From Diphasiastrum complanatum (Eukaryota; Streptophyta; Lycopodiopsida; Lycopodiales; Lycopodiaceae): a DNA stretch of 64,000 nucleotides. The notes below the pieces were generated by a model, which made no database searches, was not told the origin of the DNA, and was given only the letters and a program-made list of their open reading frames with translations. The position numbers and the translations under genes were made by a program. Location of the stretch: contig CM055101.1 of assembly GCA_029204225.1 (NCBI GenBank), positions 31,586,519 to 31,650,518 on the forward strand. The letters are read 5' to 3'. This document shows, one piece after another, positions 1-57,809 of the stretch (positions are counted from its first letter, which is position 1; every line of letters starts with the position of its first letter).

Positions 1-1102
1 TTGGTACTGATCCTGCATCCTGGAGGGAAATTAGCGTACATGTACATATTGAGATCTGTAACATTGTTTTTCCCAGATTGCATTCAAAGAGCAAACTGGA
101 TTTTATGAAAGTTGAAATAATCACCTCAGAAACCGGCCTACAGCATCAAAATTATATTCAAGATAGCAACATAGAACACAAATGTTTCAAAGGTGAAGAT
201 CATTATGCACTGACAATGCAAGTATCCACATTTCTCCTGATTCAGTAATAACCTGTGAAAGAGGCCAATATTCAGCTTCTTTTTGCTGAGAATGATGTTG
301 CCTGACAGCAATCATTTGCATTTGTAACTTGTGATATTCAGAGCCAAAGTGATTCAGCATGGCCTTTAAGCGTCCGTTCTCTTCGACCACTCGGCTCAGA
401 TCTCCTTTGGCCACCAGTAACTGCACAAATTGCTATCTGCTTAACCCTTAAATATACGTCATCTATTCGTAAATCGATTTCAATAGGGTGGATGCCTGAT
501 TACAAACCTCGTTCTGGAGCCGGATCATGTGCATGACTTTGGCGTGTTTGGGTGAGGATGAAGGTGATCCGTCCTCTACAGTTGACCTGTCAATTGCACT
601 GTGCACATGCCGACTCTGCAATTCAGCCGCTTAAATTTTCCATCAGATAGAACATCAAAGTTTTTGCTAATTTCACCTTCGAGCAGCAAACAATGTAGTG
701 AGCTTCGTGATAATTAACTATTGCAGATCGAAGGTGTTGCAAGAGCGTGTAACGTACCAAGAGCCACTGATCCTTGAACCTGCTGCTTGTATTGCAGTTG
801 TATAGGGCGATCTGATTTGACCTGCCACTAATTAGTCTCGTTGAATCATATCTCAGTCGTTCTCCAGTAGACTTATTGGGATGTTTTTCCTGAAAGGTAG
901 TGAATACTTCTCCAGGCTTACAAATTGCTGAACCATCCTTACTTTTTTCTTTAATATCTTTCGAATGCCGACTATTCTCGTCTTTCTCACTCATCCCGTG
1001 CCGCACAGGGTACTGATCCAATCCTCCATCCTGCTCTTCGACGTTTTCCTCAAGCTTTACGGAAAGATCGATATCAGGCACCCTATCGAATCGTCCTTCC
1101 AT
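1..1102 (-). CDS. WRKY transcription factor (group II, IIa/IIb-like), 5' exons; truncated by window edge
   Basis: Seen: three exons join in phase 0 on the minus strand, 1102-758 (115 aa), 615-508 (36 aa) and 420-253 (56 aa), with donors GT at 757, 507 and 252 and acceptors ending at 616 and 421. A fourth exon may start at position 19. Exon 1 opens with MEGRFDRVPDIDLSVKLEE, an acidic N-terminus with the DLSxKLEE-type block found in WRKY proteins. Exons 2 and 3 together form a leucine-zipper-like coiled coil (MIRLQNE joined to LLVAKGDLSRVVEENGRLK, then HKLQMQM), typical of group IIa/IIb WRKY factors, which dimerise through it. The WRKYGQK DNA-binding domain would be encoded left of position 1 and is not visible. 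Family role: nuclear regulators binding W-boxes in stress and defence responses. No internal stops, so the visible part looks functional. The exon 1 donor is the least certain junction. Confidence 0.8.
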
Positions 1103-1267
1103 TCGACTAATCTGCTTCTAGATTGTAATCACGGCAATGCTACTTCTGACAAATCAACTCCCTCCATGCAGCGCGCACTACAAACACAAGTGTAAACACC
1201 ATTCACAAAAGAACCACGCTAAAATTTGAAAGCCTACCGAACCACAGACACATCATCATTGATGGTC

Positions 1268-1355
1268 TTGACTCTTAGATGTGATGATGAACCTGCACTG
1301 GTCAGCGAAGCCACGACATGTATTATATATATACATATATATATATATACACACA

Positions 1356-1391
<36 letters not shown>

Positions 1392-1463
1392 TAGCTAGAT
1401 TCTTGAAGAGTTGGAAGCAGAGTCAAGACGATTGAAGAAGAAAATCTTAGTTGACTTGTTGAC
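1268..1463. promoter_or_regulatory. W-box cluster upstream of the WRKY gene
   Basis: Within about 360 bp upstream of the WRKY start codon lie TTGACT at 1268-1273 and 1451-1456 on the plus strand, TTGACT on the minus strand (AGTCAA, 1421-1426), and a TTGAC core followed by G at 1459-1463. TTGAC[C/T] is the known WRKY binding site, and many WRKY promoters are W-box rich because of auto- and cross-regulation. That these sites act here is inference. Confidence 0.5.
1321..1388. repeat. Compound microsatellite (AT)n(AC)n(GA)n
   Basis: An AT-rich run, a short AC run and a GA run (about 1361-1388) follow one another in the WRKY upstream region, between the first and second W-boxes. Confidence 0.9.
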
Positions 1464-1661
1464 GAAGAGTCGAGATTACCAGATTGTACAAGTGGAAGAT
1501 AGCAAAGCTTAAAGCCAGATTAACCCAATCCGCAGCAGCTGATCTATAATTAACCATACATCATGAATTGCATCCAATACATATATTTCCAATACCACCA
1601 TTTTTTCAGCAGCATCTTCCTTGCACTAGCGCAATCTCCCACTGCGCTACTGCAGCCCTAG

Positions 1662-2006
1662 CTACCACTGCCCCCGGAGCCCATAGCCCCTCCTCCAATT
1701 CAGGCCATTGCGTCAACGCCGTGGTCGATGCAGGAGCTGGTTGCGGATCCGATTGCTATGGAGGTCTTGGAAGTGGTCCTCTCCCTCGCAGCAGCAGCAG
1801 CATCATCATCATCATCATCATATTACCACCACCAACCGCGACCTCCTCAGTCCTCCTCCCCGCCATCACCGCCGTCTCTCTCTCTTTCTCTCTCTTGCTT
1901 TCTCTTTCTCTTTCTCTTTCTCTTTCTCTCTCTTTTTTGGCTTTCGTTTTCATACGTCAACGTGCATGGGCTAGTGTTGTCGATCCGACGACGCGCTGTT
2001 ACTTAG
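1662..2006 (+). other. GC-rich open frame with low-complexity tracts, possible orphan 5' exon
   Basis: After a TAG at 1659-1661 a frame stays open to 2006. It contains EPIAPPPIQAIASTPW and MQELVADPIAMEVLEVV (ATG at 1728), then Ala, Ser and Tyr/His runs from a GCA/TCA repeat, then Pro/Ser-rich sequence and an artificial SLSLSL/FLFLF tail from a pyrimidine tract. GC content is clearly above the flanks, as in many plant first exons. The MQELVADPIAMEVLEVVLSL stretch looks protein-like, but I do not recognise it, no convincing splice donor follows, and the rest is microsatellite translation. It could equally be promoter-proximal low-complexity DNA. Confidence 0.2.
1797..1934. repeat. (CAG)n/(CAT)n and (TCTTTC)n low-complexity tracts
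   Basis: A short CAG run then CAT run (about 1788-1825), followed after 40 bp by a long pyrimidine tract of CTCTCT and CTTTCT units (about 1872-1934). These tracts create the homopolymer reading frames in all three frames of this region. Confidence 0.85.
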
Positions 2007-2044
2007 CTCTATATCGAATGGACAAATGGGGGAAACCTCTTTGA

Positions 2045-5000
2045 GGTTTCTCTCCATTTTCCTGCATTTTTTTTAAGGTTGTTCATTTTTTAAAGTTTTT
2101 GCCTTCTAAAACCTGCATGTCAAATTTTCTGCCCACAAAATACTAGATATTTAGGTTAAAAATTTATTTTAATCTACCTACACAAATTTCTTCGCATTTA
2201 AAAAAAGTTGTCGATGTTTTAAATGCCAAGTTCCTGCAAGTTTTTTATGAAATCGATTTTTGGAAAACAATGTTGGTTCCATTCCTATACTTTGCCGGCT
2301 TTTCTGAACAGAATGTCATGGCCTCGACTTCTATGACTTTGCTCCTTGTGTGCATGCAAATATTTCATAAATCGAAGGTTCAGATTAAGTTTGAAACCAA
2401 AATCAATGGTTCACGTTGAGTCTAGAACCGTGTGGGCATAATACAATTTAATCTAGTGTGTTTGTGTGAGCGCTCCAAGAATTTACAAATACTTAACTTC
2501 ACTTCAGGTATGGAATCTTAAAAATACATACAAATACTAGATGGAATGCTAAAAATACATATAAATCTTCATGGATGGAGTCCTTAAAATAACTGCCCTC
2601 ACAGATGGAATCATTCACAAAATCTTAAAAATCATGTCCATAACTTTTTCAAATTTTAGTAACACAATACATGCGATAATCGTTGGTCCAAAGTAAAGAC
2701 ATAATGGTCATCTTCTCATCTCGCTGCTACCACAATATTGAGACGAGAAAATATGTCCGTATTATGGCTGGAGCTGCAAGACGAAAAGGTGAGCCATTAT
2801 ATCCTTAATGTGGGCTAACAAACAACCATTATCTAGTCCATAATAAACAAAGATTAAAAGAACATTTTCAACACTCCTTTTGAATTATGTTGTATGCCCT
2901 CAAACAAGAGGCTAGGGCACATAGACTATATGCTAACCCCTATCACCGATTGCCACATGTCAATAGTTACAACACACTATATGCCACCGAATATATCGTG
3001 TGTAAAAAGAAAAGAGTAAAACGTGTCTTCAAGTCAAGGAAGAGTCCTTTCGTTTGGTCCTTCCGCCAAAGGAAGGGCTTCTAGGGCCTCAACCTACCAC
3101 CACCCATAGATGTAGCCACTTTTTGGCAAAATGGCCTTGAAAGGGGAAACACACACACACACATACCCTTCTTCCAAATATAAAAAGTTTAATAATAAGT
3201 TGGTTACCATGCACCATTTTTCCACATGCCACATTGTTGTCACTCACCACCATGACCATTAGAGACCTAAAGATCCATGCATGCTACAAGTGTAGCCTAC
3301 CCAATGTCAAACTAACTATAAACAACCTCTTAAACAACATCAAAAAGTGAACCTTGCTATCACATTGTGAAATCACAAATATTTTGCATCTTCACTTGGA
3401 AACCTCCATGTGCCATATTAGGTTTGTGGAGTCCTTGGGGGGAACCAACTCAACCTAATAGGCTCTATTCCATGTAACATTTTGTCACATACCCTTAGAT
3501 AGAGGGTCAACCTTATAATTAGATTGCTTACATAGTCCCTTTTAAATTATTTTATTTTCAACGCTAGTTGATAGCATCATATTTCAACATATAGATTCTA
3601 AATCCACATATAGGCCTTTCCAAGAATGGAGCTTGTATATCGTTAATTGCGTGGCAATCGAAGCTCGAGCCTGTGCTTTGGTGGACACTAATCATTCTTA
3701 TCCTAGTTGCCTGTTGCAAAGGATATCCAAAGTATCAAATTTCCATAGCAATGGACCTGCATTAGATGTTGAGTTTTGGACCACACTACTAACCACTCTT
3801 ATCCAATGTAGCTACTATGGGAGATTTCCTTTTGGATTGTGCCATATGCCCTAGGTATAGGTTTGTCAGCCCCATAAACATTGACTTTATTGTAGAACTT
3901 AGTTCAACTTTATTTTTAAACTTTGTCTTCTACACTAGGTCTCTTGTAGGAGTATGAGTTCTTAGGCTAGTTCTTATTCTAAATATAAAGCAAAGAACTT
4001 ATTCCCTTACCCTCATGCCTTCTAGAAGTCTTTGGACTTTGAAGGTGATTACTTTGACTTGTCTCTCTCTCAATTTATAGGACAACTATCAAATGTCAAA
4101 GCAAACTCTTGGGCTTGCATGCGCTCTTGGGAACCTAATTAACAAGCATGTACATATCAAACAATGGGTTTGATCCATAAGCCAACTTGAACTAATTGTT
4201 GAAGCCTATTGTAGCCCTCAATCTCATGGATAACACAATGCAACAAAGTGCTCACAATGTCATATAAGGTGAGGAGGGCTAGGACTTCAAACATATAACT
4301 CCTTTGACAACTGCCTTAGGACCATTATAACATTTAGCTCCACCATATGTTATGCAAACATTTGTACCCCAAGGAAATTGGATCAAAATTCTATTGTGCT
4401 CCAAGAGTCATTTGCCTCTTTTTTGTTTGAATGTTAGACAAGATGTAGCTTGCTTAAATCAAATTATTGCTTCTAATTGTTCTACTTAGCAAAAGGAATC
4501 CACATGCCCTCCTTTTTCTAAGGTTGTGGATGGGGACTTAGCCAACATCACTTTGAATTAGGAATTGTAGTTATCACACGAACATTTTAATATATGTTAG
4601 TCTATACCATCCAAATCACCATGAGCTCATCTAAAAAGTATTATTAAATTTATAAAGTCAACTTCAAGATATCGTGATTGAAGCTTTCTTGAATGAGGTT
4701 ATAACATGTATAATACTAGCAAAATGCTAGTGGCTTTCACTTGACCTTCTAAAATACATCGTCTACTCATGTTTGTAAAAGATTTTCTAGACATAGAGAT
4801 TATACATATACATTAATATCTATTACACTAATTTATATTTTCATGTAAAAGTTGATCATGGAAGCATTTTGTACATAAATCAGCATGTTTCAATCCAAAG
4901 TTATTTGCGTAAAGAACTATTAAAGCATAAAATTCTCAAAGTTACTTATTGATTTTAGAAAACCAAGTTTTGAGATTTACACAAGCAATCAAATCTTATT

Positions 5001-5752
5001 TGCTATGCCAACATCTTGAAGTTGGACAAGCATTTAGTAAATGCAATGACTCTTTCACTTGTGAACATTGAGGCATATATGATGTATGAACAAGGCTCCT
5101 TAAGCAATCTCCATTTCATAGGATCACCACCATGTTCAATAAACCAGTAGAAAGACGCCTTTTCTATGAATTCAATATTCTATTATTTTCTGCAAGGAAA
5201 ATGTTCTACTTGCTTGGCATATTTTATCTCGGTGAATGAGACATATTTTCACATTATCATATTCATTATTGTATGTTTGAATATATTCATATTTTGTTAG
5301 TTGACAAAAGTCTCTTTGCATGTGTTTGTAAAGTAGTAAGTCGTAGTTTATCCTATTGACACTGGTCACTTTGTCACTTTAGTTAGAAACCATATTAAGT
5401 GCCACATAAGGCCACAATAATTTTAGAGTTTGGAAGTGTTGTCACGTAATGGAGGCCTCAATACCATGCAGTGAAAACCCCTTTCTAATTAGCTTTTATA
5501 AGAGTTTTTTTGTTTGTTTCATTCTAGTAGTCTTGCCTTTGGGTTCTTTGAGAAGCATCAAGCTATATTCTTCTTATGCAAGCAATAGTGGATTGTCTTT
5601 TATTGCTAGGAGGTTTGATAAGCTCTAAGATAGATCCTTTCCATGGCATCAGAGCCTTGGTAGAGAGTGGCTAACAATGGTGAGATTTAGGAAAAAAACA
5701 TGAGGAGACTAGTGATTGGAGAAAGAACTATCGAATAAGTTGAAAATTCATC
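2045..5752. other. AT-rich intergenic DNA, no gene seen
   Basis: Only short chance reading frames are present. A short (AC)n tract lies at about 3148-3165. No LTR, tRNA-like or coding motif was recognised. Confidence 0.6.
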
Positions 5753-5815
5753 TTATAATGGCAATAGTTGGTAAGAATCTAATTGAAATTCTTCCAAAAT
5801 AAGGCTTTTCAGCAG

Positions 5816-5816
<1 letters not shown>

Positions 5817-5858
<42 letters not shown>
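5817..5858. repeat. (TG)n microsatellite inside a gypsy RT remnant
   Basis: About 21 TG units interrupt the reverse-transcriptase frame of the gypsy fragment just after its ILIYSKTLKEH block, giving a His-Thr run in translation. Confidence 0.95.
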
Positions 5859-5859
<1 letters not shown>

Positions 5860-6190
5860 ATATAAATATTTTTACATGCTCCTTTAGTGTTTTACTATAG
5901 ATGAGAATGTCATCTAGAAATATCACGACAAATCTTTCCAAGAAAGGATGAAACAAGGCATTCATCATTTGTTGGAAAGTAGTCGTAGCATTTGTCAAGC
6001 CAAAAGGTAAGACTAGGAACTTGTAATGATTAGACCGTGTCCTAAAACCGGTTTTAGATGCATCATCTGGATGAATCCGTATTTGATGTTATAAAATCAC
6101 TCATATCCTAGAATAAGATCAAGACGATCTAGATTCATGACATCACTCGCCTTAACCCTGTTATCTAATTTGAAATAATCACCTTAAGAT
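5860..6190 (-). mobile_element. Ty3/gypsy reverse transcriptase fragment (degenerate)
   Basis: Reading the minus strand from about 6190 leftward gives DYFKLDNRVKASDV, then LDLILGYE, then IHPDDASKTGFRTR, HYKFLVLPFGLTNAT, TFQQMMNALFHPFLERF and VVIFLDDILIYSKTLKEH. These match in order the conserved blocks of gypsy RT (DLRSGYHQI, FRTRYGHYEF, MPFGLTNAP, the YVDD-like catalytic FLDD box). A frameshift and a stop lie before IHPDD. No LTR, RNase H or integrase adjoins, so this is an isolated dead fragment. Family identity is secure; the exact right edge is not. Confidence 0.85.
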
Positions 6191-6670
6191 TTTCAATAAG
6201 GATATTGGATATATTTGAGAATCTAGAAGGATTCAATGTCAACAAGCAGTACAAATTGTCTGCTCAATATAGGGGACCATATAAAATACTCTTATTCATT
6301 CTTATGGAAGATATCTCTTTGGGGTTCTACAACCATTTTTGCATTTTGGTGATGATAAAGTGTATTCTTGTATATAGAATGCTATTTTTCTTATATGTAT
6401 GAGTTACCACGCATGAGTATTGTCGTTGTACGGCCATTTATGGACAGGAGCATAAATTATCATACATAAGTGATTTTGACAAGTTCTTGTTGAGTTTACA
6501 TCTTTCATTCTACGTGTAGTAGATGATTGATTTTTACATTTGTCATGGTGCTAGATGTGCTCTCTTACTAAGCCAAAGATCAAAGGGCATAATTAGGTCT
6601 TTGTGATCTGATTTTCTTCCCAGCCTAGTCACGGGCTGCTAATGTGTCCCAATGAGTGATTCTAGCATTG
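6191..6670. other. No gene recognised
   Basis: AT-rich DNA with one weak frame (6205-6402) that does not resemble a known domain. Confidence 0.5.
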
Positions 6671-6679
6671 TGTTTTATA

Positions 6680-6960
6680 TCAATGATCTTGTAATTACTG
6701 ACAATGATGTGGAGTTTATTAGAGCCATTAAGAAAGATCTTTTTGGCAACTTTTGACATGAAAAATTAAGGTCTCATGTACTATTTGTGTGGAAGTAGAA
6801 ATTTGGCATAGCTTGTATTATAGTCACTCAAACAAAGTATGTCAATGAGATGTTAAAGAGATTCATGATGAGTGACTGTAAGACCATTTTCACAGCTGTT
6901 GAGACAGGAAACAACCTATCACATGAGATTCTCTATTTGCAACTCGATCATACTACTAGA
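6680..6960 (+). mobile_element. Ty1/copia reverse transcriptase 3' fragment (degenerate)
   Basis: Plus-strand translation gives INDLVITDNDVEFIRAIKKDL (the copia YVDDLIITG region), then, after a frameshift, a remnant equivalent to the FLGIEV block followed by TQTKYVNEMLKRFMMSDCKT and TAVETGNNLS, equivalent to the copia block 'YAKDLLKRFGMEDCKPVSTPM'. In-frame stops and at least one frameshift show it is dead. No flanking LTR was found. Confidence 0.75.
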
Positions 6961-7198
6961 GAAAATTATTTTCATGAAAATAAAATCAGAATTCTTCTAA
7001 GTACACTGATAATAAAAAATCGGTGATGTGGACTCTTAGGTGCCAGCAACGCAAGAAGGTTGTAGTAAGGATCCTTCCACTTAGATCAGCCTCGGAGGCG
7101 AGTCGAGGTAATCATCCCCAAGGATCAACTTTATTAAATCTAGAAGATGTTACATTCTTGAAGAAACTTAAAGTTTCTAACCATCAAAGCTTTTGTAT

Positions 7199-7400
7199 TT
7201 TTTCTTACGTTTTTCGGACTGCTACAATTTTGAACTAAGTTTCGCACAGTCTTCATATTTGAACTGTTTTTCGCACAGTTTGCACTTTTCGCATTTCCCA
7301 AAAAATCAACACGTGGACGAAATATGACTTGGAACATATTTCAAAGGACCTTCAGATTTTTCGCAAATTCTGGAAAATGCGACACTTCGTCTAAAATTAC
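7199..7400. repeat. TTCGCA-rich unclassified repeat, copy 1
   Basis: Repeated TTCGCA, TTCGCACAG and GCATTT words mark this patch. A block at about 7275-7310 aligns with about 25365-25400 (CGCACAGTTTGCACTTTTCG versus CGCACAATTTGCATTTCTCG), so the two are diverged copies of one repeat. On the minus strand both could encode a similar N-A-[KR]-x-A-N-C-A peptide. Confidence 0.5.
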
Positions 7401-8147
7401 TTAGAGCAAGTTTTCATTGACCTTCGCATTTTTCCCCGAAGGGCAGAAAACCGATCCACACCGAAAAGTCAACAAATGTGGTTCACATACGGTCTCAGTC
7501 AACGAATGTGGTTCACATATGAAGGAGATGAACCGCGGGCATCCAAAAGCTGTTAGGATTAAATCTACAGATGTTCTTCTAATCTTGTATCTTAAACTAA
7601 TCATCTCTCATGTTCTTCTATATATAAGATCAACAAGAGTGATGCAGGGTGATTTTGGGTTGATGAGTGTTAGTCATGCAGTAGCAGACACATATTGTCA
7701 CACAAATAGATATAGAAATAGCAGTAGCTAGTTCCTCGTAAGAGAGAGTACCTCTCTTGCACCGATGCACTGATCTGGAAAATAGGCGACGCTAAAAATT
7801 GTTGTTGTAAACTTATTTCTGAGAAATAGAGTTGTGATATTCCGCCTATGGTGTGTAATCTGTGAATGATTTTGATGCTTGCTTACAGTAGATATACTTC
7901 CGCCGTTATTAAACATTATCTATTGTTCATAAACTTAAATCAGTAGTGTCATGGAAGATGATTGATTGTAGTATGAAGAAATAGCTACAACTACATAGAT
8001 CTTACTTTAGTCACATCAAACTTCACTGGTGCTTAACCACAATTAAAGTATAATTCTCAAAATGTCAAAATATTCCCTTCCAATAGTTGGGCACACTCAA
8101 AAATTTGAATTAGGAATGACATTTAAGAAACAAAGCCTACGCCATCT
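7401..8147. other. No gene recognised
   Basis: Short overlapping frames on both strands (for example 7417-7731) show no recognisable domain and no codon-level signs of selection. Confidence 0.5.
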
Positions 8148-10078
8148 CTATCTCCAAGGTCGAGCGTCATCTCCAACTCTATTATTGTCATTGTGTTGTT
8201 TGTTACTATAATATGGTACTGATGACAAAGCTTTATCATCTTCATGTGGATTTGTCACTAGAACGCTCAGGACAAGAAATTCAAAGCAACCCAAATTGTC
8301 AACTTCTGATATGATCTGATACAGGGAGGAAAAGCGAGGAATCGGTAGTACGGGTTTCCAATTAGGATCTTCTCGATCTCTTGATGTTCTTGTACTCCTT
8401 GTCATGTCTTTTGTTGTCTTCATGCAGTACAAACATGGGTGTTTAGAGTTAGTGCCATGGGATACATTGAACATACTTTTTAATGTCTTCAGATCTCCTG
8501 CTAAATGCCATTCTATGTTGAAAGTGCCAATTCTAGGAATATTGAGTGGATCTCCATCCATGTGATTTTTTATGGTGGCAGGATATGACGTTCTATTAAA
8601 TATCCATGAGAGAATGTCATGGTCTCCTTTCACCACCTATAAGAGAAACAAAAACATGATTTAGAATAATATTAACACAAAGAGAATTTTCCAAATGGAA
8701 TCCATATTAGATTATCCCTATTGAATATGTGAAGGAACTACTACACCTGAAAGGCTGCCAACCACCAAATATCATTTTCTGATTGAACACTGAAGTTGAG
8801 GCCTTTTGAGTCTTGAATTTGAAAGTGCTCCATTCATGTCGTAAGACTGACTCTCTCCGTTTTTTGTCCTTTCATAATTTCAGACTCATCTAACTTGAGA
8901 ACAACTATCATTCTCATTTGTAATATCGTAAAAATTTATGATGAATGTTAGTAACTGATTAATGTCAATAAATTAATAGTTGGAAATGTTTATGCTAGAC
9001 ATTCTCCTTTCGAGCAATACACTTCATTGATATGAGATGGATTACCAACTATTGTCTGCATACCTTGGTTTAACATGTCTTTTTTTTTTTAAAGATGAAA
9101 TGGTCGTGAAATTGGAAACTTTTATTACTTACTGATGCAAATGCCTCCTTTATCATCTTAAACATTATTGCATATGCTTTTCTACTGATGCTAGAAAAAT
9201 CACATGCCCCCTGAACCAATGTAGTGTCCAATATTTTTCCAACTTCATTCATAATGTTATCAGTAACTAAAGCCTTAATCTTTTTCATTTTGTTATTGTT
9301 TAACATTGATTTCATAGATTTAGAAGTCAAAATAGAACCTAGTGAGTTTCCAATGGAAATCTCATCGACCAAATGGTCTTCAGCAACCAATGTTGATCTG
9401 CATTGCAAACATAATGTTCATAAAACTGTTAGTAGAGATTAGGACAATCATAGTATTCACAGCAACATAATAAACAAATCAATAAAAAGTTGAAATTAAT
9501 AAATAACAAAACTAGTGATTATGATTGAATCTAAAAGTTCAAGCAATATTAAACCAAATAAGCTATAACTTACTTGAAAGCACGGATTCGTCTTTTTCAA
9601 TAACCTCCTCTAAATGATAGATCACATATATCCTTGGTTACCAATCTTTTCCTCTTGTTGTTTCTGACCTTTTTGTTGAGCACATCCATATCTTTAACAA
9701 GAGACAAATATGAGATACGCATGGATTGAAATGCAGTTTTTATCTCATCATTACTAGTTGTAAAATGACGCATAGAATATTTCAACGTTTGGATCTCCTT
9801 TTTGAACATCTCATTATCTTCCAAACAAGTTTTCAACTTTGTAGATTTTTCTTCACATTCGTTTGATATTTTCCTTAATTCCTCTTCCAAATAATGTATT
9901 CTTTGCATTGGATGTGCATTCCCAAATTCTCACAGTAATCCAAAAGGCCATTTTTGCCATGACACATATAGATTATTAATTGACTCACCGAATGAAAATC
10001 CGGATGTTGCAATGAATATGGATCAATAGGATACAATGTTCCCAATGACCATAAATCTAGGGTTATACCAAAGAGCAA
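8148..10078 (-). pseudogene. Broken multi-exon gene or DNA-transposon coding unit, family not recognised
   Basis: Seen on the minus strand, 5' to 3': a frame 10078-9875 (LWSLGTLYPIDPY, YMCHGKNGLLDYCENLGMHI) that a one-base shift joins to 9908-9597, a Lys/Glu-rich coiled coil (HYLEEELRKISNECEEKSTK). A 265 bp exon follows at 9397-9133 with donor TCA|GTAAGT. Next comes a frame 8917-8747 (MRMIVVLKLDESEIMKGQK, one internal TGA at 8836-8834, SVQSENDIWWLAAFQ) ending at a GT donor, joined in phase 0 over a 110 bp intron to 8636-8148. That exon reads VVKGDHDILSWIFNRTSYP, IEWHLAGDLKTLKSMFNVSH and KHPCLYCMKTTKD. Conserved splice phase argues this was once a real gene; the frameshift and TGA argue it is now dead. 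The acidic GDLK with a following CxxC resembles zinc-ribbon insertions of some DDE transposases, but that is speculation. Confidence 0.5.
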
Positions 10079-39310: not shown

Positions 39311-40472
39311 AAATTAAGTACAGGGACCACAACATGTAAACAAGAGTCACCAAAACATAAACAAAATACAAATAGATAAAGAGTTTATTCACATCTTGTT
39401 TATTGAAATTTATCATCCATAGCAAGCTCGTGCTTAGATTCTAACTGTGTCTCTGAGCTTCTCATGTATGCCTTCCATTTTGTGAGTGCTCTTGGTGTCG
39501 AGATTACCACTCAATTTATAAAATTGGGGATGCTATGAGGACAAAAAACCTATGTGTTAACATCTGAAACTTATTGGGCCAATAGGCAAGTTGTATGGGA
39601 CAAACCCTGGTGGGACCCAATAAGACCAATTTTTAGTTTCCTTGAAGTTCTCCTTTAAGAGCCTTTGGACTAGTGTATATACGATCTTTTGCTAGTCATT
39701 CAACAACAATTGATTATAATGTTTCTGAGCATCTTTAGCAATACTATATGTATTCATATTTATAATATTGTACTAACACATGGGACTTACCAAGCTAGCG
39801 GCCATGTTGTATGGGGCAAACCCTTTGTTGGTCCCACAAACCTAATTGTATCAAAAATAATTAGTATGATTTATACATTCTAAACCTACATGTGTGGAGT
39901 TGGACTATATGCAAGTAAAGGTTGAGATTTACTAAAATTGCAAATACCCAAGATAATTCTACTAAACTAAATGTCAAAGAACATGAAAAGCCCAAACAAA
40001 CAAGAAAACCAAGCACAAAAATGAAATGTCTATAAATCTCACTCGAAACAAGCATTGAGCCCCCTCTCTACTGCATGCAAAATCAAAACACACAATAGTC
40101 TAACTACCTAAAAAGGTCATATACAAAGAAAAGCTAAAAGCACCATATTCAGAATAACAATCCTAAAACAAAGTGTTCTATCACTAGCAAAATAGTGGGA
40201 AAATTGCAAAAGCATGAAACTGTTGTGCCCTTTTGAATTTCTTCTTTGTCAGTGTCAAAGTGTAAAGTTATTACATAAGCGGACCGAATAGACCATATGA
40301 TGTCACAAAATATGTAAATGTGCAACCGTGGCATCACTGTATACGAGCACTAGATTATTGTTAGCATATAGCTAGTTGCATCTTACTGATTTACACATTG
40401 TAAACACTTTTCAACTAATGAGGCTGGGGCATGTGATTCAATGCCAACCACTTTAATCTAGAAAGCAACCTG
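39311..40472. other. No gene recognised
   Basis: AT-rich DNA. Its last 45 bp form the left copy of a short tandem repeat whose right copy lies beyond the LTR array (45576-45619). Confidence 0.5.
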
Positions 40473-40866
40473 TGTTAGAATTAATGGTTAATTGTAGAGG
40501 CCACGCAGCGTGCTAGAAGACCTATTTCTATTTTTAGTATAGGTACTATCTATTTTTAGTATAGGTACCTAAGTTAGTACCAATTTTGCTAGAATAGTAT
40601 AGAAATCTATTTTAACCAAGTTAGCATAAATTTCTATTGTTAAGACTTCATAATCAATTGCTATTGTAGTAGAGTAGTTTTTGCTTTTCATTGTGGACAG
40701 CCTCTATAAGAGTAGATGGGCGCCCACCTCCATGGTTATCTCAGTTTCCAGCTTATGAAGCATAGCTTCTTGCAGTCTCTCTTCTTCTTCAGCTTGTGGT
40801 TGATGTTTTGTGTGAGTACTAATAAGATTAGTCTACTCCGATTAGAGAATCTCTTCAATTCTAACA
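40473..40866 (+). repeat. Array LTR 1 (long type, 394 bp)
   Basis: Contains the ~22 bp internal duplication of CTATTTTTAGTATAGGTA and lacks the 8 bp TAGCATTT-type insert seen in the others. Confidence 0.95.
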
Positions 40867-41119
40867 TGGTATCAGAGCCATCTCGTTAAGATCGGAATCT
40901 ACGAGAGGAAAAGATCAACGCTGCAGGTTCTACTGGTGGAGGTCGCATCTAGTGGAGGTGCTGTTTGGTGAAGGTTGTATCTGGTGGAGGTCACATCTGG
41001 AGCAGATAGCTTCTGGACAGGCAGATTTGAGGGAGACAACATCCATAGCAGAGGTTTCAGACAGGTCACATCTGGTGAAGGTCACAGCTGCTGCAAGTTT
41101 ATCTGAAGGCTTTTCCTAA

Positions 41120-41192
41120 GGGCGGATAGCTCACTGGTAGAGCATCCCATCCGGTAAGAGGGAGGTCCTGGGTTCGAATCCTAGTCTGTCCA
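41120..41192 (+). tRNA. tRNA-like sequence 1 (Thr-GGT-like, probable pseudo-tRNA)
   Basis: 73 nt that folds by eye as a tRNA. The acceptor stem GGGCGGA/TCTGTCC pairs over 7 bp with two wobble pairs, the D arm GCTC/GAGC encloses ACTGGTA, the T arm CTGGG/CCTAG encloses TTCGAAT, and the discriminator is A. The anticodon arm is irregular: TCCCAT/GAGGGA with one A-A mismatch around loop CCGGTAA, which would place GGT as anticodon but with C instead of U at position 33. A box TAGCTCACTGG has one departure from consensus; the B box GGTTCGAATCC is perfect. Transcription by Pol III is plausible, use in translation is not. Confidence 0.55.
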
Positions 41193-41221
41193 TCCATATT
41201 ATGATTTATGGATTTCTAACA

Positions 41222-41461
41222 TGGTATCAGAGCTGTATACAGCTTGCAAAGAATCCAATATTTCATAGCAGGTCAAAGCATATTGAAGTTCAGCAGCATT
41301 TTATACGAGAAAAGTTACAAAGTGGTGAAGTAGAGTTGATCTACTGTGACACCAATGCTCAAGTTGTAGATATCTTCACAAAAGGACTCGGTCGTGAAAA
41401 ATTTGAGAAGTTCAAGACTCCCCTAGATGTTATTGATAATCAATTATCCATCAAGGGGGAG
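41222..41461 (+). pseudogene. copia RNase H C-terminal remnant in array unit 1
   Basis: Begins with a second primer-binding-like TGGTATCAGAGC (preceded by TTTCTAACA, an LTR-end look-alike). The frame then gives LAKNPIFHSRSKHIEVQQHF, REKLQSGEVELIYCDTNAQV, VDIFTKGLGREKFEKF and ends at the purine tract before LTR 2. The same segment recurs in units 2-4. In units 2 and 4 the frame extends back to an ATG inside the tRNA-like T arm (42139 and 44107, 99 codons); in unit 3 a TAG interrupts it. Confidence 0.85.
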
Positions 41462-41841
41462 TGTTAGAATTAATGGTTAATTGTAGAGGCCACGCAGCGT
41501 GCTAGAAGGCCTATTTCTATTTTTAGTATAGGTACCTAAGTCAGTACCAATTTTGCTAGAATAGTATAGAAATCTATTTTAACCAAGTTAGCATAGATTT
41601 CTATTGTTAAGACTTCATAATTAGCATTTCAGTTGCTATTGTAGTAGAATAGCTTTTGCTTTTCATTGTGGACAGCCTCTATAAGAGTAGATGGGCGCCC
41701 ACCTCCATGGTTATCTCAGTTTCCAGCTTATGAAGCATAGCTTCTTGCAGTCTCTCTTCTTCTTCAGCTTGTGGTTGATGTTTTGTGTGAGTACTAATAA
41801 GATTAGTCTACTCCGATTAGAGAATCTCTTCGATTCTAACA
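41462..41841 (+). repeat. Array LTR 2 (short type, 380 bp)
   Basis: Lacks the 22 bp duplication present in LTR 1. Ends ATTCTAACA, then TGGTATCAGAGCC at 41842. Confidence 0.95.
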
Positions 41842-42090
41842 TGGTATCAGAGCCATCTCGTTAAGATCGGAATCTACGGAAGGAAAAGATCAACGCTGCA
41901 AGTTTTACTGGTGGAGGTCGCATCTAGTGGAGGTGCTGTTGAAGGTTGTGTCTGATGGAGGTCACATCTGGCGCAGATAGCTTCTAGACAGGCAGATCTG
42001 AGGGAGACAACATCCATAGCAGCGGTTTCAGACAGGTCACATTTGGTGAAGGTCACAGTTGCTACAAGTTTATCTGAAGGCTTTTCCTAA

Positions 42091-42163
42091 GGGCGGATAG
42101 CTCACTGGTAGAGCATCCCATCCGGTCATAGGGAGGTCTTGGGTTCGAATCCTAGTCTGTCCA
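42091..42163 (+). tRNA. tRNA-like sequence 2
   Basis: Same 73 nt fold as copy 1. The anticodon region reads CCGGTCATAGGGA instead of CCGGTAAGAGGGA and the T stem has a T for C change. B box intact. Confidence 0.5.
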
Positions 42164-42432
42164 TCCATATTATGATTTATGGATTTCTAACATGGTATCA
42201 GAGCTGTATACAGCTTGCAAAGAATCCAATATTTCATAGCAAGTCAAAGCATATTGAAGTTCAGCAGCATTTTATACGAGAAAAGTTACAAAGTGGTGAA
42301 GTAGAGTTGATCTACTGTGACACCAATGATCAAGTTGTAGATATCTTCACAAAAGGACTTGGTCGTGAAAAATTTGAGAAGTTCAAGACTCTCCTAGGTG
42401 TTATTGATAATCAATTATCCATTAAGGGGGAG

Positions 42433-42834
42433 TGTTAGAATTAATGGTTAACTGTAGAGGCCACGCAACGTGCTAGAAGGCCTATTTCTATTTTTAGTAT
42501 AGGTACTATCTATTTTTAGTATAGGTACCTAAGTTAGTACCAATTTTGCTAGAATAGTATAGAAATCTATTTTAACCAAGTTAGCATAGATTTCTATTGT
42601 TAAGACTTCATAATTAGCATTTCAGTTGCTATTGTAGTAGAATAGCTTTTGCTTTTCATTGTGGACAGCCTCTATAAGAGTAGATGGGCGCCCACCTCCA
42701 TGGTTATCTCAGTTTCCCGCTTATGAAGCATAGCTTCTTGCAGTCTCTCTTCTTCTTCAGCTTGTGGTTGATGTTTTGTGTGAGTACTAATAAGATTAGT
42801 CTACTCCGATTAGAGAATCTCTTCGATTCTAACA
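42433..42834 (+). repeat. Array LTR 3 (long type, 402 bp)
   Basis: Carries the 22 bp internal duplication. It begins the second long-short pair. Confidence 0.95.
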
Positions 42835-43087
42835 TGGTATCAGAGCCATCTCGTTAAGATCGGAATCTACGGAAGGAGAAGATCAACGCTGCAGGTCTTA
42901 CTGGTGGAGGTCGCATCTAGTGGAGGTGCTGTTTGGTGGAGGTTGTGTCTGGTGGAAGTCACATCTGGCGCAGATAGCTTCTAGACAGGCAGATCTGAGG
43001 GAGACAACATCCATAGCAGAGGTTTCAGACAGGTCACATCTGGTGAAGGTCACAGCTGCTGCAAGTTTATCTGAAGGCTTTTCCTAA

Positions 43088-43160
43088 GGGCGGATAGCTC
43101 ACTGGTAGAGCATCCCATCCGGTAAGAGGGAGGTCATGGGTTCGAATCCTAGTCTGTCCA
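43088..43160 (+). tRNA. tRNA-like sequence 3
   Basis: Same fold as copy 1 with GTCATGGGTTCG in place of GTCCTGGGTTCG, so one base next to the T stem differs. B box intact. Confidence 0.5.
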
Positions 43161-43429
43161 TCCAGATTATGATTTATGGATTTCTAACATGGTATCAGAG
43201 CTGTATACAGCTTGCAAAGAATCCAATATTTCATAGCAGGTCAAAGCATATTGAAGTTTAGCAGCATTTTATACGAGAAAAGTTACAAAGTGGTGAAGTA
43301 GAGTTGATCTACTGTGACACCAATGATCAAGTTGTAGATATCTTCACAAAAGGACTTGGTCGTGAAAAATTTGAGAAGTTCAAGACTCTCCTAGGTGTTA
43401 TTGATAATCAATTATCCATCAAGGGAGAG

Positions 43430-43809
43430 TGTTAGAATTAATGGTTAATTGTAGAGGCCACGCAGCGTGCTAGAAGGCCTATTTCTATTTTTAGTATAGG
43501 TACCTAAGTCAGTACCAATTTTGCTAGAATAGTATAAAAATCTATTTTAACCAAGTTAGCATAGATTTCTATTGTTAAGACTTCATAATTAGCATTTCAG
43601 TTGCTATTGTAGTAGAATAGCTTTTGCTTTTCATTGTGGACAGCCTCTATAAGAGTAGATGGGCGCCCACCTCCATGGTTATCTCAGTTTCCAGCTTATG
43701 AAGCATAGCTTCTTGCAGTCTCTCTTCTTCTTCAGCTTGTGGTTGATGTTTTGTGTGAGTACTAATAAGATTAGTCTACTCCGATTAGAGAATCTCTTCG
43801 ATTCTAACA
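43430..43809 (+). repeat. Array LTR 4 (short type, 380 bp)
   Basis: Almost identical to LTR 5, 971 bp downstream, with which it shares the ATAAAAATCT variant. Confidence 0.95.
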
Positions 43810-44058
43810 TGGTATCAGAGCCATCTCGTTAAGATCGGAATCTACGGAAGGAAAAGATCAACGCTGCAAGTTTTACTGGTGGAGGTCGCATCTAGTGGAG
43901 GTGCTGTTGAAGGTTGTGTCTGATGGAGGTCACATCTGGCGCAGATAGCTTCTAGACAGGCAGATCTGAGGGAGACAACATCCATAGCAGCGGTTTCAGA
44001 CAGGTCACATCTGGTGAAGGTCACAGCTGCTGCAAGTTTATCTGAAGGCTTTTCCTAA

Positions 44059-44131
44059 GGGCGGATAGCTCACTGGTAGAGCATCCCATCCGGTAAGAGG
44101 GAGGTCATGGGTTCGAATCCTAGTCTGTCCA
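44059..44131 (+). tRNA. tRNA-like sequence 4
   Basis: Same as copy 3. A and B boxes keep the tRNA spacing of 44 nt between box starts. Confidence 0.5.
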
Positions 44132-44400
44132 TCCAGATTATGATTTATGGATTTCTAACATGGTATCAGAGCTGTATACAGCTTGCAAAGAATCCAATAT
44201 TTCATAGCAGGTCAAAGCATATTGAAGTTCAGCAGCATTTTATACGAGAAAAGTTACAAAGTGGTGAAGTAGAGTTGATCTACTGTGACACCAATGATCA
44301 AGTTGTAGATATCTTCACAAAAGGACTTGGTCGTGAAAAATTTGAGAAGTTCAAGACTCTCCTAGGTGTTATTGATAATCAATTATCCATCAAGGGAGAG

Positions 44401-44780
44401 TGTTAGAATTAATGGTTAATTGTAGAGGCCACGCAGCGTGCTAGAAGGCCTATTTCTATTTTTAGTATAGCTACCTAAGTCAGTACCAATTTTGCTAGAA
44501 TAGTATAAAAATCTATTTTAACCAAGTTAGCATAGATTTCTATTGTTAAGACTTCATAATTAGCATTTCAGTTGCTATTGTAGTAGAATAGCTTTTGCTT
44601 TTCATTGTGGACAGCCTCTATAAGAGTAGATGGGCGCCCACCTCCATGGTTATCTCAGTTTCCAGCTTATGAAGCATAGCTTCTTGCAGTCTCTCTTCTT
44701 CTTCAGCTTGTGGTTGATGTTTTGTGTGAGTACTAATAAGATTAGTCTACTCCGATTAGAGAATCTCTTCGATTCTAACA
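44401..44780 (+). repeat. Array LTR 5 (short type, 380 bp)
   Basis: Near-identical to LTR 4, with a GCTACC for GGTACC change. Indicates a recent duplication of one whole 971 bp unit. Confidence 0.95.
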
Positions 44781-45029
44781 TGGTATCAGAGCCATCTCGT
44801 TAAGATCGGAATCTACGGAAGGAAAAGATCAACGCTGCAAGTTTTACTGGTGGAGGTCGCATCTAGTGGAGGTGCTGTTGAAGGTTGTGTCTGATGGAGG
44901 TCACATCTGGCGCAGATAGCTTCTAGACAGGCAGATCTGAGGGAGACAACATCCATAGCAGCGGTTTCAGACAGGTCACATCTGGTGAAGGTCACAGCTG
45001 CTGCAAGTTTATCTGAAGGCTTTTCCTAA

Positions 45030-45099
45030 GGGCGGATAGCTCACTGGTAGAGCATCCCATCCGGTAAGAGGGAGGTCCTGGGTTCGAATCCTAGTCTGT
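45030..45099 (+). tRNA. tRNA-like sequence 5, 3'-truncated
   Basis: Identical in design to copy 1 up to ...AGTCTGT, where a deletion of about 200 bp removes the acceptor end, the second primer-like site and most of the RNase H remnant, joining to GGTCGTGAAAAATTTGAG. Confidence 0.5.
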
Positions 45100-45171
45100 G
45101 GTCGTGAAAAATTTGAGAAGTTCAAAAGTCTCCTAGGTGTTATTGATAATCAATTATCCATTAAGAGGGAG

Positions 45172-45573
45172 TGTTAGAATTAATGGTTAATTGTAGAGGC
45201 CACGAAGCGTGCTAGAAGGCTTATTTCTATTTTTAGTATAGGTACTATCTATTTTTAGTATAGGTACCTAAGTTAGTACCAATTTTGCTAGAATAGTATA
45301 GAAATCTATTTTGACCAAGTTAGCATAGATTTCTATTGTTAAGACTTCATAATTAGCATTTCAATTGCTATTGTAGTACAATAGCTTTTGCTTTTCATTG
45401 TGGACAGCCTCTATAAGAGTAGATGGGCGCCCACCTCCATGGTTATCTCAGTTTCCAGCTTATGAAGCATAGCTTCTTGCAGTCTCTCTTCTTCTTCAGC
45501 TTGTGGTTGATGTTTTGTGTGAGTACTAATAAGATTAGTCTACTCCGATTAAAGAATCTCTTCGATTCTAACA
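45172..45573 (+). repeat. Array LTR 6 (long type, 402 bp), right end of array
   Basis: Long type with the 22 bp duplication, like LTR 1. Ends TTCTAACA followed by the ACCTG target duplication. Confidence 0.95.
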
Positions 45574-45578
45574 ACCTG

Positions 45579-46072
45579 GGGCATGTGATATGGTGGCAAC
45601 CACTTTAATCTAGAAAGCAAATGACTGAGTAAAATATCACTCCCTCTTAAAGCTTTGACTTGGTAGATCACAATAAAGACAACATCATATTTCTAGTGCC
45701 TAGCATTAGTCTGATCTAAAATCTGCAAAATGAAGTAATGCCTCCTTTAGCATATCATTCGACGTTTTCCTACTTTACCAGAGCTTCTGACCAAGCAAAC
45801 CTAATGCACTTCCAAAAGCATATGGAGGATGTTCTTCTGTTCATCATAGCCTAAATGGTTACATCCTGAGTTTGCCATACAAAACCCTACAGAAAAGAGT
45901 TATCAAGGGCCCTTCTGAAATGACGGAAACCTATTCAAGGTAGACCTAACCTCAAAAGTAGGTAGCTTCTATCTCCACACTAGCTATTGGTTCTCCCAAT
46001 GCGTTCAGCCTGAGCAGAGAGGAGTGGCAATATTAATTGCACCCTCCGTAAAGCCATCACCAGAAACAGGAA
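45579..46072. other. Intergenic/3' flank of the zinc-finger gene
   Basis: Starts with the right copy of a ~45 bp tandem repeat (TTTAATCTAGAAAGCAA). No gene. It probably holds the 3' UTR and poly(A) region of the gene on the minus strand. Confidence 0.4.
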
Positions 46073-49000
46073 TCATCCAACTTCCTTAGATTGATTGGGA
46101 TTTGAATGCACTTCATCAGCCTTGGCAGTCTCAACACCAGCTCCCTGGTGCGACTTGTTTAACTGTACCTGTGACGCATGCCTCTTACCTTTGAAATGTG
46201 CCTGTAAGTCCCCCTTACTAAAGCAATTTACATCACATAATTCGCACCTTCGTATCTTTCCTCCATTACCTTTCTTTAACATAAACTGATTGCCAGTTGC
46301 TCTTTCAAGATTGTTTTGCTTAGATTTCTTATTAGGATATCTCACCATATCCTCGGCAAAGCTTCTTTTACCCAGATTGGAGACTTCACCGCCCTGGATA
46401 CCAGGCGCCTCCTTTCCATCAGATGCATTGATAACACGATCACGTGTAACCTTGACCTTTTCCTCTCCTTCACCCTTTGCTGGTTGAATCTTCTCAGCAT
46501 CATCGAGTTCAGCTTTTCTGGATTCTGGCGTGATAGTTGCACTGGCAGATTCTATCCCAACATTCTCATCCTTTTCCACAAACTTGTCTGCCTTGTTTGA
46601 TGCTTCTTCATTCAACTTAAGCTTATGCCTCTTTCCTCCAAGATGAGTTTTAAAATTGAATGTTGTGTCACACTCTAATTGGCAGACAGAGCACCAGGTT
46701 TGGTTTACTCCTTTAGCCGTATGCTTGAAGCTTGTCGATAATACTTCATGTCTCCGAACAAAAGGAAGTCTGTCATGCCTCTCAAGAGATCTCTGCAGCA
46801 ACAGCTAAATAATCATGACACCATTGAAACTTCATACTCTCAGTAATGTAGGCACATACATTTGTACTTACAATGTAAATACTTTTGTGTATTGATGTTA
46901 ACTCTTGCAAAATACCTGCAAATAAAGGACGTGCAACCTTACAACTTCATGGAGTCCACCCACAAAGTCTTAGACCATCAAACCCAGTGTGCGCGGACTC
47001 CATCATACTATAACATGTATGATCTCTGCATGAAGGTTGTTACAGAAACTGACGACCTAAGCTTGCAACAATCTTGGTGCATCAAAGGAACTAGCCAGAT
47101 AAAGCATACGTGTGTCACACCAGCTGCACATTATCAGCTAGGCCAAAAACAGCTAGTGTGCATATAAAAGATGATCAGCTTTGTCACAACTGATCAAACT
47201 ACCAACCAAACATATTTGGAAACTCCCTGTCTAGGAGGTCCCGAGGAAGTTTACACAAGAATGTTGAGACTTGTCAATTGTTTGTTAAATGTTTAGAACT
47301 CTTCATGGAGACATGCTCTGTAAAAAATTGAATTTCCAGATTACATAATGGCTAATGGGCACTTCCAAATTTTCACTCTCTTAGAACTTAAAAAAAATTA
47401 CAAGCCTTTACAAGCATTTGAAAAGTGCTTGATATGTTCCACATTTTATAAGCAGGTTACATGCACAAACACGCATCCACATTAGCTTTCATTTTCACTC
47501 AACTCCCAGAGGCAAAGGGCAGACTCAGCCATGATGCAAGCTAGCACTAAAGAAAATAAGAGACGATCCCTGCAAAGGATTATTGCAGTTGATAGATTGA
47601 TATTAGGACGGTGCTCAACATAAAAAAGGAGATGAGGAGTCTTAAACTTTATGGAGTTCACTCACAAAGTCTTCGACCAAGTCACTCATGCATAGCATGG
47701 ACTAAATGCCATTACATCCCTACGCATGCGATCAGAGCACAACAGTAAGTGCAGGTCACATGCACAGACATGCATCCACATTAGCTTCCATACATTTGTA
47801 CAGAGACCAGTCACCAATGTATTGGGTTTCAATCAATTCCCCAGAAGTAAAGGGCAGACTCAGCAATGAATGCAAGCTAGCACCAAAGAGATTAAGACAT
47901 GATCCCCTACCTGCAAAGACTGATAAGAGTTGATATCAATAGGATGGTGCCTGATATAACAAAGGAGATAAGCTGTCTTAAACTTTATAAAGTCACCCAC
48001 AAAGTCTTTGACCATCGTATGTATTATGGACTACATGCCACTAAACAGTATTCCAACTTCCCTTTCGAAAAATGTTCTCATTTCCTATACATTGAAGGCA
48101 TCGATCCAATCTGGATGGAAGATAGATCTTCATATGTGTAACGGGTCAAGACTTAACAGGTCATGATCGTCTCTCTTTGAAAGTACAGGAGGTTAGATGT
48201 GATACAAAGCAAGGCAAGAACAGTGGACTGCCTTATCAACCATTTTAAAACTACTCATGCGATACCCAATTTCAAAATTGGAAACAAATTGGCAGAAGGC
48301 CCTGGCCCCCCCATGTGGCAATTATGTTGGAACAAAAAGGTGTAGCTAAAGAAGCTAATCAGGACACTGGAAAGAGAAGGGCCTATGTGAAATTGGACAA
48401 TCATCAAGCAAAGATCTTCAAGTGACAAGAAGCGTAAAGAAGCTGTAAAGACCAGTACTTGGTCTGAGAACTGTGAAGACATGAGCAATATAAGATGGTA
48501 GACTTTCACCAAAATTTTGAGAACAATCGGAACTAAGTGCCATAAAGTTTGTGCAAATACAATACCAAGCAAAATAGAATAGCTGGTTCAATAAAGAAAG
48601 TAAAGAGGTAAGGAAGCAGTGAAAGCCAGCAATTCACAAAGGCATCCTCACAAAAGAGATGGTTATAGCTTATAAGTGAATAGTAAAGAGGCAAAATATG
48701 GCACTTTCTTAAAGAAGAACAAAAAGCATTACATAAGGAGCTCACATCAAATCTCAAAGCAATATAAAGCAGGTTTTGCTGCTAATTTCTAGCTAACAGG
48801 CTTTGCAATGAATGGATTTAAGCAGCTACTATCTAGAGCTACAAAACACAAGGGATTTCATGTACTTTTGTTTGGTTCCATAAATTCTGATAAATATTCA
48901 ATGATGAATGGTGATCACCAAAGAAACATCCATTCCCATAACTTGAAAGGTAAGCTTTTCAAATAGCTCACATCTTCCATATGAAAGCTGGGACTCAGAC

Positions 49001-56529: not shown

Positions 56530-57030
56530 TGGCACATATCTACCTTGATACCCAATATTATGTATGGATTTCAAAATGTTCAACTTATGGTGTTTTAACA
56601 TCATTTTTTGTCTCATAAAAGTATTATTGTATTATATGCTTGAATATGGTTCCTTGTCCTCACACTAATCAGTATGGAATTTGCCCTGATACGATTTTTC
56701 AAGGCGGAACATATTGATATCATAGTTTATGGTAGGGAAGATTGGACTAAATTTTGAAATACTTAGTTGTTGTGTTATCGTGAATCTTGTTTTGGACATG
56801 GATAACAACTAATGCTCAACCATAACACCTGTCTTCTCCACTATACTAGCTCGTGCGGTTTTGTTTTGCGCGATGGTGGTAGGTAACAATTGGACATCTT
56901 AGAACTTGCTTCACTTTATGGTACTTTGTACTGTAAGATTTCATGCAGGTTTTTTATTATCTGTTATGCTATAAAACAAAGGGTTCAAAAGGTTTGGTCT
57001 TGCTTTTTCAAGGGGGAATATGTGAATTCT
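56530..57030 (+). repeat. Diverged direct duplication, copy A
   Basis: Aligns with 57810-58325: shared ordered words include ATCAGTATGG, GGATAACAA, GTTTTGTTTTG, GGTAACA, ACTGTAAGA, TTGTTATGCTATAAA and AAAGGGTTCAAA. The copy ends in the long CT tract. Confidence 0.75.
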
Positions 57031-57034
57031 CTCT

Positions 57035-57242
<208 letters not shown>

Positions 57243-57809
57243 CATCTCTTCCCTCTATTGTGACCTTATTCAGATTGGACGAGGAGAGACCTATGAATAC
57301 ATGCAGTAGAGTATTCGTGAGGGGAAGCGATACGAAATAAGGCAAGATTTCTATTATGTCTTTGACTCAATAAATCGCTAGCTAAATGCTCACCAACAAG
57401 TGAATGAGCTGTGCTTGCTACAAATAGCTCACATACATGTGATAATTGTGGAATGGTTTAGAGTGTTTGGCTTCCAAAACAACTCCTGCAATTGGGCGCT
57501 ACCTCAGCCTCATACCTGAGCAATCATCTCAATTGTAGATTTTGTACAAGACGCATAATGCAATACGAGTCACGTACACATGAAGAATTCCAAGATGTGT
57601 TAAGATTGAATGTCTACGAAAATATAATTCTGAATATGTACATTTCATGTTTTAAGTTGATTGGTTTATGATGCTAATAGCAGAAAATAAGGATAAAGCG
57701 GTTACTTTAGTGACCTATGTACTTGTGCAGGCTTGTATGGCATGGATTTGCCCGAGCTGTAAGGTGCTTGGACTCCTAATGATTTCATGGGAGGTCCATG
57801 GGGCTAGTA

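Follow-up and report, generated by a model that had tools for sequence, protein, structure and literature searches.

Our analysis showed that the tandem array at positions 40468 to 45578 of the window (the whole 64,000-nt stretch of Diphasiastrum complanatum contig CM055101.1 analysed here) is built from a chimeric retrotransposon, whose interior consists of the leader of a Copia element (X), 115 bp of a Helenus-type terminal-repeat retrotransposon in miniature (TRIM; Y) and the 3' end of the X RNase H region. We conclude that the array arose by one insertion followed by expansion in place, and that the mixed subtypes of its long terminal repeats (LTRs) arose inside it. Taken as a whole, an origin of the chimera by reverse transcription, followed by a single insertion and in-place expansion, is in our judgement the probable explanation. 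The chimera matters more than the array, and it suggests that Copia machinery handles RNAs of TRIMs of the transfer RNA (tRNA) type.

Structure of the array

Six LTRs and five interiors make up the array, arranged head-to-tail on the + strand. The LTR starts given in the first-pass annotation (40473, 41462, 42433, 43430, 44401 and 45172) proved exact; in array order the LTRs measure 394, 380, 402, 380, 380 and 402 bp and the interiors 595, 591, 595, 591 and 391 bp, and units 2 onward are 93-96% identical to unit 1, far above chance. As that annotation had also said, ACCTG stands on the outer flanks only, at 40468 and 45574, adjoining the outer LTRs, with no further ACCTG in a scan of 40401-45700. 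Removal of the array and one ACCTG leaves a tandem repeat of 46 bp with 40/46 bases identical, in agreement with the two-copy repeat of about 45 bp claimed before; we take this repeat to be older than the insertion because it is more diverged than the array LTRs, pairs of which show 1 to 10 differences in 372-402 compared bases. The LTRs are of two types that differ in a short tandem repeat, B having one 22-bp copy fewer than A, and their order along the array is A B A B B A. The features are as follows.

40424..40469, no strand: 46-bp tandem repeat, left copy (right copy restored once the array and one ACCTG are removed)
40468..40472, no strand: target-site duplication ACCTG, left; also on contig C1072, described below
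40473..40866, +: LTR1, outer, type A with the 22-bp repeat and a private 8-bp deletion
40867..41461, +: interior 1, Copia X leader, captured Helenus piece, RNase H 3' end and polypurine tract
40867..40878, +: primer-binding site TGGTATCAGAGC, first of two in interior 1
41119..41233, +: captured piece of the Helenus-type TRIM Y (Y 42-156), tRNA-like sequence, LTR 3' end and primer-binding site
41120..41192, +: tRNA-like sequence (Rfam RF00005, 46.7 bits; ARAGORN tRNA-Thr GGT)
41226..41461, +: Copia X RNase H 3' coding end and polypurine tract, recognized by inspection and from the match to X
41462..41841, +: LTR2, inner, type B; no difference in 380 bp from the LTR of unit C2 on the second allele
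41842..42432, +: interior 2; tRNA-like sequence at 42091-42163
42433..42834, +: LTR3, inner, type A
42835..43429, +: interior 3; tRNA-like sequence at 43088-43160; nearest to the C2 interior
43430..43809, +: LTR4, inner, type B
43810..44400, +: interior 4; tRNA-like sequence at 44059-44131
44401..44780, +: LTR5, inner, type B
44781..45171, +: interior 5, with an internal deletion of about 200 bp (joint 45099/45100) common to the second allele
45172..45573, +: LTR6, outer, type A
45574..45578, no strand: target-site duplication ACCTG, right

The interior starts with the primer-binding site TGGTATCAGAGC, which we take to be of the initiator-Met type, and about 250 bp of X leader, while its last 236 bp are the 3' end of the X RNase H region with the polypurine tract. 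The tRNA-like sequence was recognized by Rfam in 5/5 interiors and by ARAGORN in three of them; in interiors 1-4 it is followed by TTCTAACATGGTATCAGAGC, comprising an LTR end and a second primer-binding site, and in interior 5 the tRNA-like sequence is truncated and the second primer-binding site lost. The tRNA-like sequence in every interior, the second primer-binding site, the deletion in interior 5 and the shorter second allele described below all go beyond the first-pass annotation.

That annotation called the element a miniature LTR element, which holds insofar as it is small, has a primer-binding site and a polypurine tract and lacks a complete coding region, its only coding content being the 3' RNase H piece. 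TRIMs are under ~1 kb, with LTRs of ~100-250 bp; here two LTRs plus interior come to ~1.4 kb and the LTRs to 380-402 bp, so that the element, being too large for a TRIM, is better described as an internally deleted Copia derivative working like one, and in origin it is a Copia/Helenus chimera. Nor is it a Helenus, because its tRNA-like part lies in the interior (all five Rfam and all three ARAGORN hits) and not in the LTR. As in other tandem arrays, head-to-tail LTRs share interiors behind one duplication, and the unit number varies if C1072 is the other haplotype.

The parents, Copia X and Helenus-type TRIM Y

The X family is about 5.5 kb long. Two LTRs together with the leader and the RNase H end were present at 7/12 fetched X loci; two further loci have a partial 3' LTR, and at three the stretch retrieved contains little or nothing of the RNase H end. 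Eight of the 12 loci match the leader in full (~244 bp), the remaining four in part. The one copy tested for domains (L014) carries Retrotran_gag_2, gag_pre-integrs and RVT_2 between LTRs at 653-1052 and 5729-6130 and is flanked by the duplication AAGCC; with a Copia gag and reverse transcriptase between LTRs and a 5-bp duplication, X, as represented by this copy, is a Ty1/Copia element.

Y is abundant in the genome, and an intact copy (locus L011) measures 404 bp, with LTRs of 144 bp, an interior of 116 bp and the duplication ATCCT, and the tRNA-like sequence lies inside its LTR. Of the best 40 among 1428 candidates in a genome search, six belong to the array and its allele, leaving 34 dispersed matches; 33/34 of these begin at query base 8 and the other at base 10, and all reach the query end. 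These 34 correspond to 33 loci, every one of which contains Y LTR sequence. A perfect 5-bp duplication was found at 19/33 (15 after dropping one of each of four identical-flank pairs), and TGGTATCAGAGC and CAAG come after the first LTR in 19 of the 21 first-fetched loci, the exceptions being L045 and L055. With a tRNA-like sequence in the LTR, a primer-binding site, a polypurine tract and a 5-bp duplication, Y fits the Helenus type. Y may be transcribed by RNA polymerase III (pol III); TTTT falls within the Y span at 2/21 loci and is absent from the L011 copy, an absence that says little, as just 1458/2000 shuffles contain one.

Y itself forms tandem arrays, with three LTRs (one partial) at L062, two and part of a third at L044, and five at L057 (561-1740), where the spacing is 259-260 bp and the outer flanks lack matching 5 bases. 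The Y copy at L060 (reverse complement, ~788-1043) has one LTR and an interior with no second LTR in place, and AATG on both sides. At L011, positions 1-3070 and 5669-8734 form a 3.07-kb inverted duplication of 99.8% identity, each arm with a Helenus-type element and a Copia X LTR, which is either a real palindrome or an assembly artefact. The members of four pairs of Y insertions (L046/L047, L049/L050, L043/L063 and L066/L067) share their 20-bp flanks exactly and lie far apart, on one large contig or on two, and therefore parts of this genome seem to have been recently duplicated or assembled twice.

Joints of the captured segment

The captured stretch corresponds to Y 42-156, running from one base before the tRNA-like start to base 12 of the primer-binding site, and none of the 41 more-upstream bases of Y is kept. 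The overlap of X and Y at joint 1 is AGGG with some X copies and AGGGCGG with others; at joint 2 it is ATCAGAG, and the base that follows is that of Y and not of X in 9/9 X copies shown. Whole-genome searches (1.745 Gb, 5176 contigs) with the junction 1 pattern at ≤3 mismatches gave eight places, five in the array, three on C1072 and none elsewhere, and so no further copy of the chimera. Similarly, a query with 41112-41461 found both joints together only in the array and its allele among the best 40 of 2368 candidates. Most likely, the chimera was born in the event that inserted here.

If Y RNA starts at the tRNA-like sequence, the captured stretch would have the extent of Y minus-strand strong-stop DNA. 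In the sequence of events that we propose, copies of Copia X and of the Helenus-type TRIM Y would have recombined during reverse transcription into one chimeric LTR element: X minus-strand synthesis would have moved from the RNase H region onto the Y primer-binding site via ATCAGAG, copied the Y LTR end and the tRNA-like part, run out of Y template at the RNA 5' end, on or close to the first tRNA-like base, and returned to a GGGCGG-like stretch of the X leader. The chimera, having lost most of gag-pol, would then have integrated once at ACCTG, and the inserted element would have grown and shrunk in place by unequal exchange between units. Since the ends of the chimera coincide with landmarks of reverse transcription, it offers sequence evidence for where the RNA of a tRNA-type TRIM starts.

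Related captures were seen at 3/33 Y loci (L045, L055 and L065), where Y lies inside another LTR element in the order host LTR end, host primer-binding site, Y interior, Y polypurine tract, Y LTR, second primer-binding site and other interior. L055 and L065 have common flanks and count as one kind, and the host at L055 carries a Copia gag; the host at L045 has LTRs of ~445 bp (387-831 and 3095-3537 in L072) and the duplication GCATA, and two frames of this L072 element, searched against Pfam, matched nothing. The piece between the two primer-binding sites is what would be expected of the full Y minus-strand DNA before second-strand transfer, and such primer-site-to-primer-site captures would be accounted for if synthesis switched molecules at the primer-binding site common to both. 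We would only tentatively, and at somewhat less than even chance, generalize that Helenus-type TRIMs are copied from RNAs starting or cut at the first tRNA-like base, and that their strong-stop DNA (at this locus) and two-primer-site minus strands (at L045, L055 and L065) are repeatedly built into co-packaged larger LTR elements, spreading tRNA-like promoters to new backbones.

A second allele and the history of the LTRs

Contig C1072 matches window positions 33714-55577 in long pieces at 98.9-99.5% identity and is probably the other haplotype. It has the same insertion with the same ACCTG, with four LTRs (42848, 43845, 44820 and 45595) and three interiors; its array measures 3149 bp as against 5101 bp in the window, 1952 bp less. 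When the units of the window (W) and C1072 (C) were compared block by block, excluding columns 739-829, C1 differed from W1 at two of 898 bases and C4 from W6 at two of 402. Unit C2 is a recombinant, with LTR2 (0/380 differences) joined to interior 3 (2/504 bases, four blocks). C3 keeps the interior deletion of W5 and upstream of the deletion mixes A- and B-type sites. Four LTRs against six, together with the recombinant unit, indicate that unit number and make-up changed in place by exchange between units. Collapse of the assembly at the LTR-interior junctions was provisionally set aside as a cause of the array, since C1072 bears its own, differently recombined version.

The comparison set consisted of 21 LTRs of this family from dispersed copies at 12 fetched loci, which cover 13 of the 38 dispersed places among the best 40 of 3071 candidates. 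All array LTRs of both contigs (10/10) carry four substitutions that are absent from 21/21 dispersed ones. In a tree of 30 LTRs (dispersed L022_2885 was dropped by the length trim), in which many branches among dispersed LTRs lack support, all ten array LTRs form one clade with support 99, W1 pairs with C1 and W6 with C4 (100 each), and the inner LTRs group together with support 81, sharing a derived base at column 193; LTR2, LTR4 and LTR5 share further changes beyond that base. The outer LTRs of the window hold 10/14 single-copy substitutions in ungapped columns (p 0.004 in a one-sided binomial test against one third; p 0.039 in a chi-square test over six LTRs).

The 22-bp repeat copy is also absent from 3/21 dispersed LTRs (loci L020 and L021). 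The mixed subtypes, put forward earlier as something special, thus need no second source element, because A and B differ by one tandem-repeat copy and all units share the private markers. We rejected separate A and B source elements on the basis of the repeat variation among dispersed LTRs, the private markers and the presence of junction 1 in both types.

Alternative explanations

The first-pass annotation regarded the block as a single insertion, which the one ACCTG pair, present on C1072 as well, and the shared private LTR markers bear out, and left a choice between integration as a multimer and unequal exchange between LTRs, of which our data favour in-place exchange. A ready-made multimer, from concatenated RNA or from template switching between co-packaged RNAs, would account for the single target-site duplication, and a comparable route has been argued in print (PMC1950507; PMC11899658). 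On the other hand, LTRs from one reverse transcription should be star-like with similar numbers of private substitutions, whereas the inner LTRs share a derived base, LTR2, LTR4 and LTR5 share more changes, the outer LTRs hold most of the private substitutions (10/14), and the LTR number is unequal between the two contigs. We therefore regard arrival as a multimer as quite improbable, though in one variant the insert may have been a dimer that grew later. A fusion, through recombination, of at least two subtypes that had inserted independently next to each other would suit the interspersed types, but the array has only one ACCTG pair and no other ACCTG, the four private substitutions are present in 10/10 array LTRs and 0/21 dispersed ones, and both types contain a junction 1 found nowhere else; this explanation is already largely refuted and we give it very little credence.

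As for the chimera, a Helenus insertion into a Copia copy, followed by two deletions with end-joining at short homologies, is less likely; in its favour, each joint has a short overlap, which microhomology end-joining could produce no less than template switching. Such an origin requires one deletion to have halted where the tRNA-like sequence starts and the other within the primer-binding site, leaving not one of the 41 upstream Y bases, and three other loci show primer-site-to-primer-site captures with ends again at reverse-transcription landmarks.

Several points weigh against reverse transcription followed by in-place growth, as we have it. Junction 1 overlaps by 4-7 bases, so that the switch point and the RNA 5' end are placed only to within a few bases. 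A CAA triplet, a plant pol III start motif (PMC11700998), begins 6 bases upstream of the tRNA-like start, and an RNA that started there, or one cut by RNase P, would leave an almost identical picture. A second capture of strong-stop DNA only was found at 0/33 Y loci. In the tree, the inner clade has support of just 81 and W2/C2 of 62, and gene conversion after insertion of a multimer could yield a similar tree. Finally, C3 cannot be ordered simply, and the haplotype status of C1072 relies on comparison of 20 kb of a 70.9-kb contig.

Relation to known elements

LTR arrays of this sort are already known, including ones with six and seven LTRs. The Wukong TRIM arrays of maize have three to seven LTRs, for which unequal exchange was proposed (PMC4528315), so that the six LTRs, described earlier as unusual, have precedents in print. 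Wukong and Cassandra (PMC7215508) are, like our element, small non-coding LTR elements in arrays; they belong to other families, and Cassandra has 5S ribosomal RNA sequence in its LTRs whereas the tRNA-like sequence here is in the interior. Plant tandem LTR-retrotransposon arrays (PMC11899658) likewise alternate LTRs and interiors, sharing internal LTRs, behind one duplication and with unit numbers that differ between haplotypes; what sets our array apart is its chimeric unit, which contains a captured tRNA-like piece, the restriction of junction 1 to one locus, and the presence of a recombinant unit. The two-allele array with its traceable recombinant unit provides a clean natural case for the question of multimer arrival versus in-place growth.

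Parent Y resembles Helenus (PMC10886601) in having a tRNA-like sequence in a short LTR, a primer-binding site, a polypurine tract and a 5-bp duplication. The only plant family characterized in that paper, from Selaginella moellendorffii, has an LTR of 120 and an interior of 85 bp, as against 144 and 116 bp in Y, and the RNA start of such TRIMs was left to experiment by their discoverer (PMC10886601). Complex Triticeae elements (PMC1950507) are also chimeras, formed by switching between co-packaged RNAs and flanked by a single duplication, but they join whole elements at R, whereas the parts joined here meet at the primer-binding site and the tRNA-like start. No captured strong-stop DNA of a tRNA-type TRIM was found in the literature searched, mostly by titles and abstract starts, and as far as these searches show, its capture in a Copia backbone is new.

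Other observations in the window

On the - strand, at 46073-46804, lies a reading frame with zf-met/C2H2 zinc fingers, the 3' end of which is about 500 bp past the array; a protein search with this frame yielded 323 candidates, none of them at E ≤ 0.001. At 56887-57366, long dinucleotide repeats give rise to low-complexity open frames on both strands.

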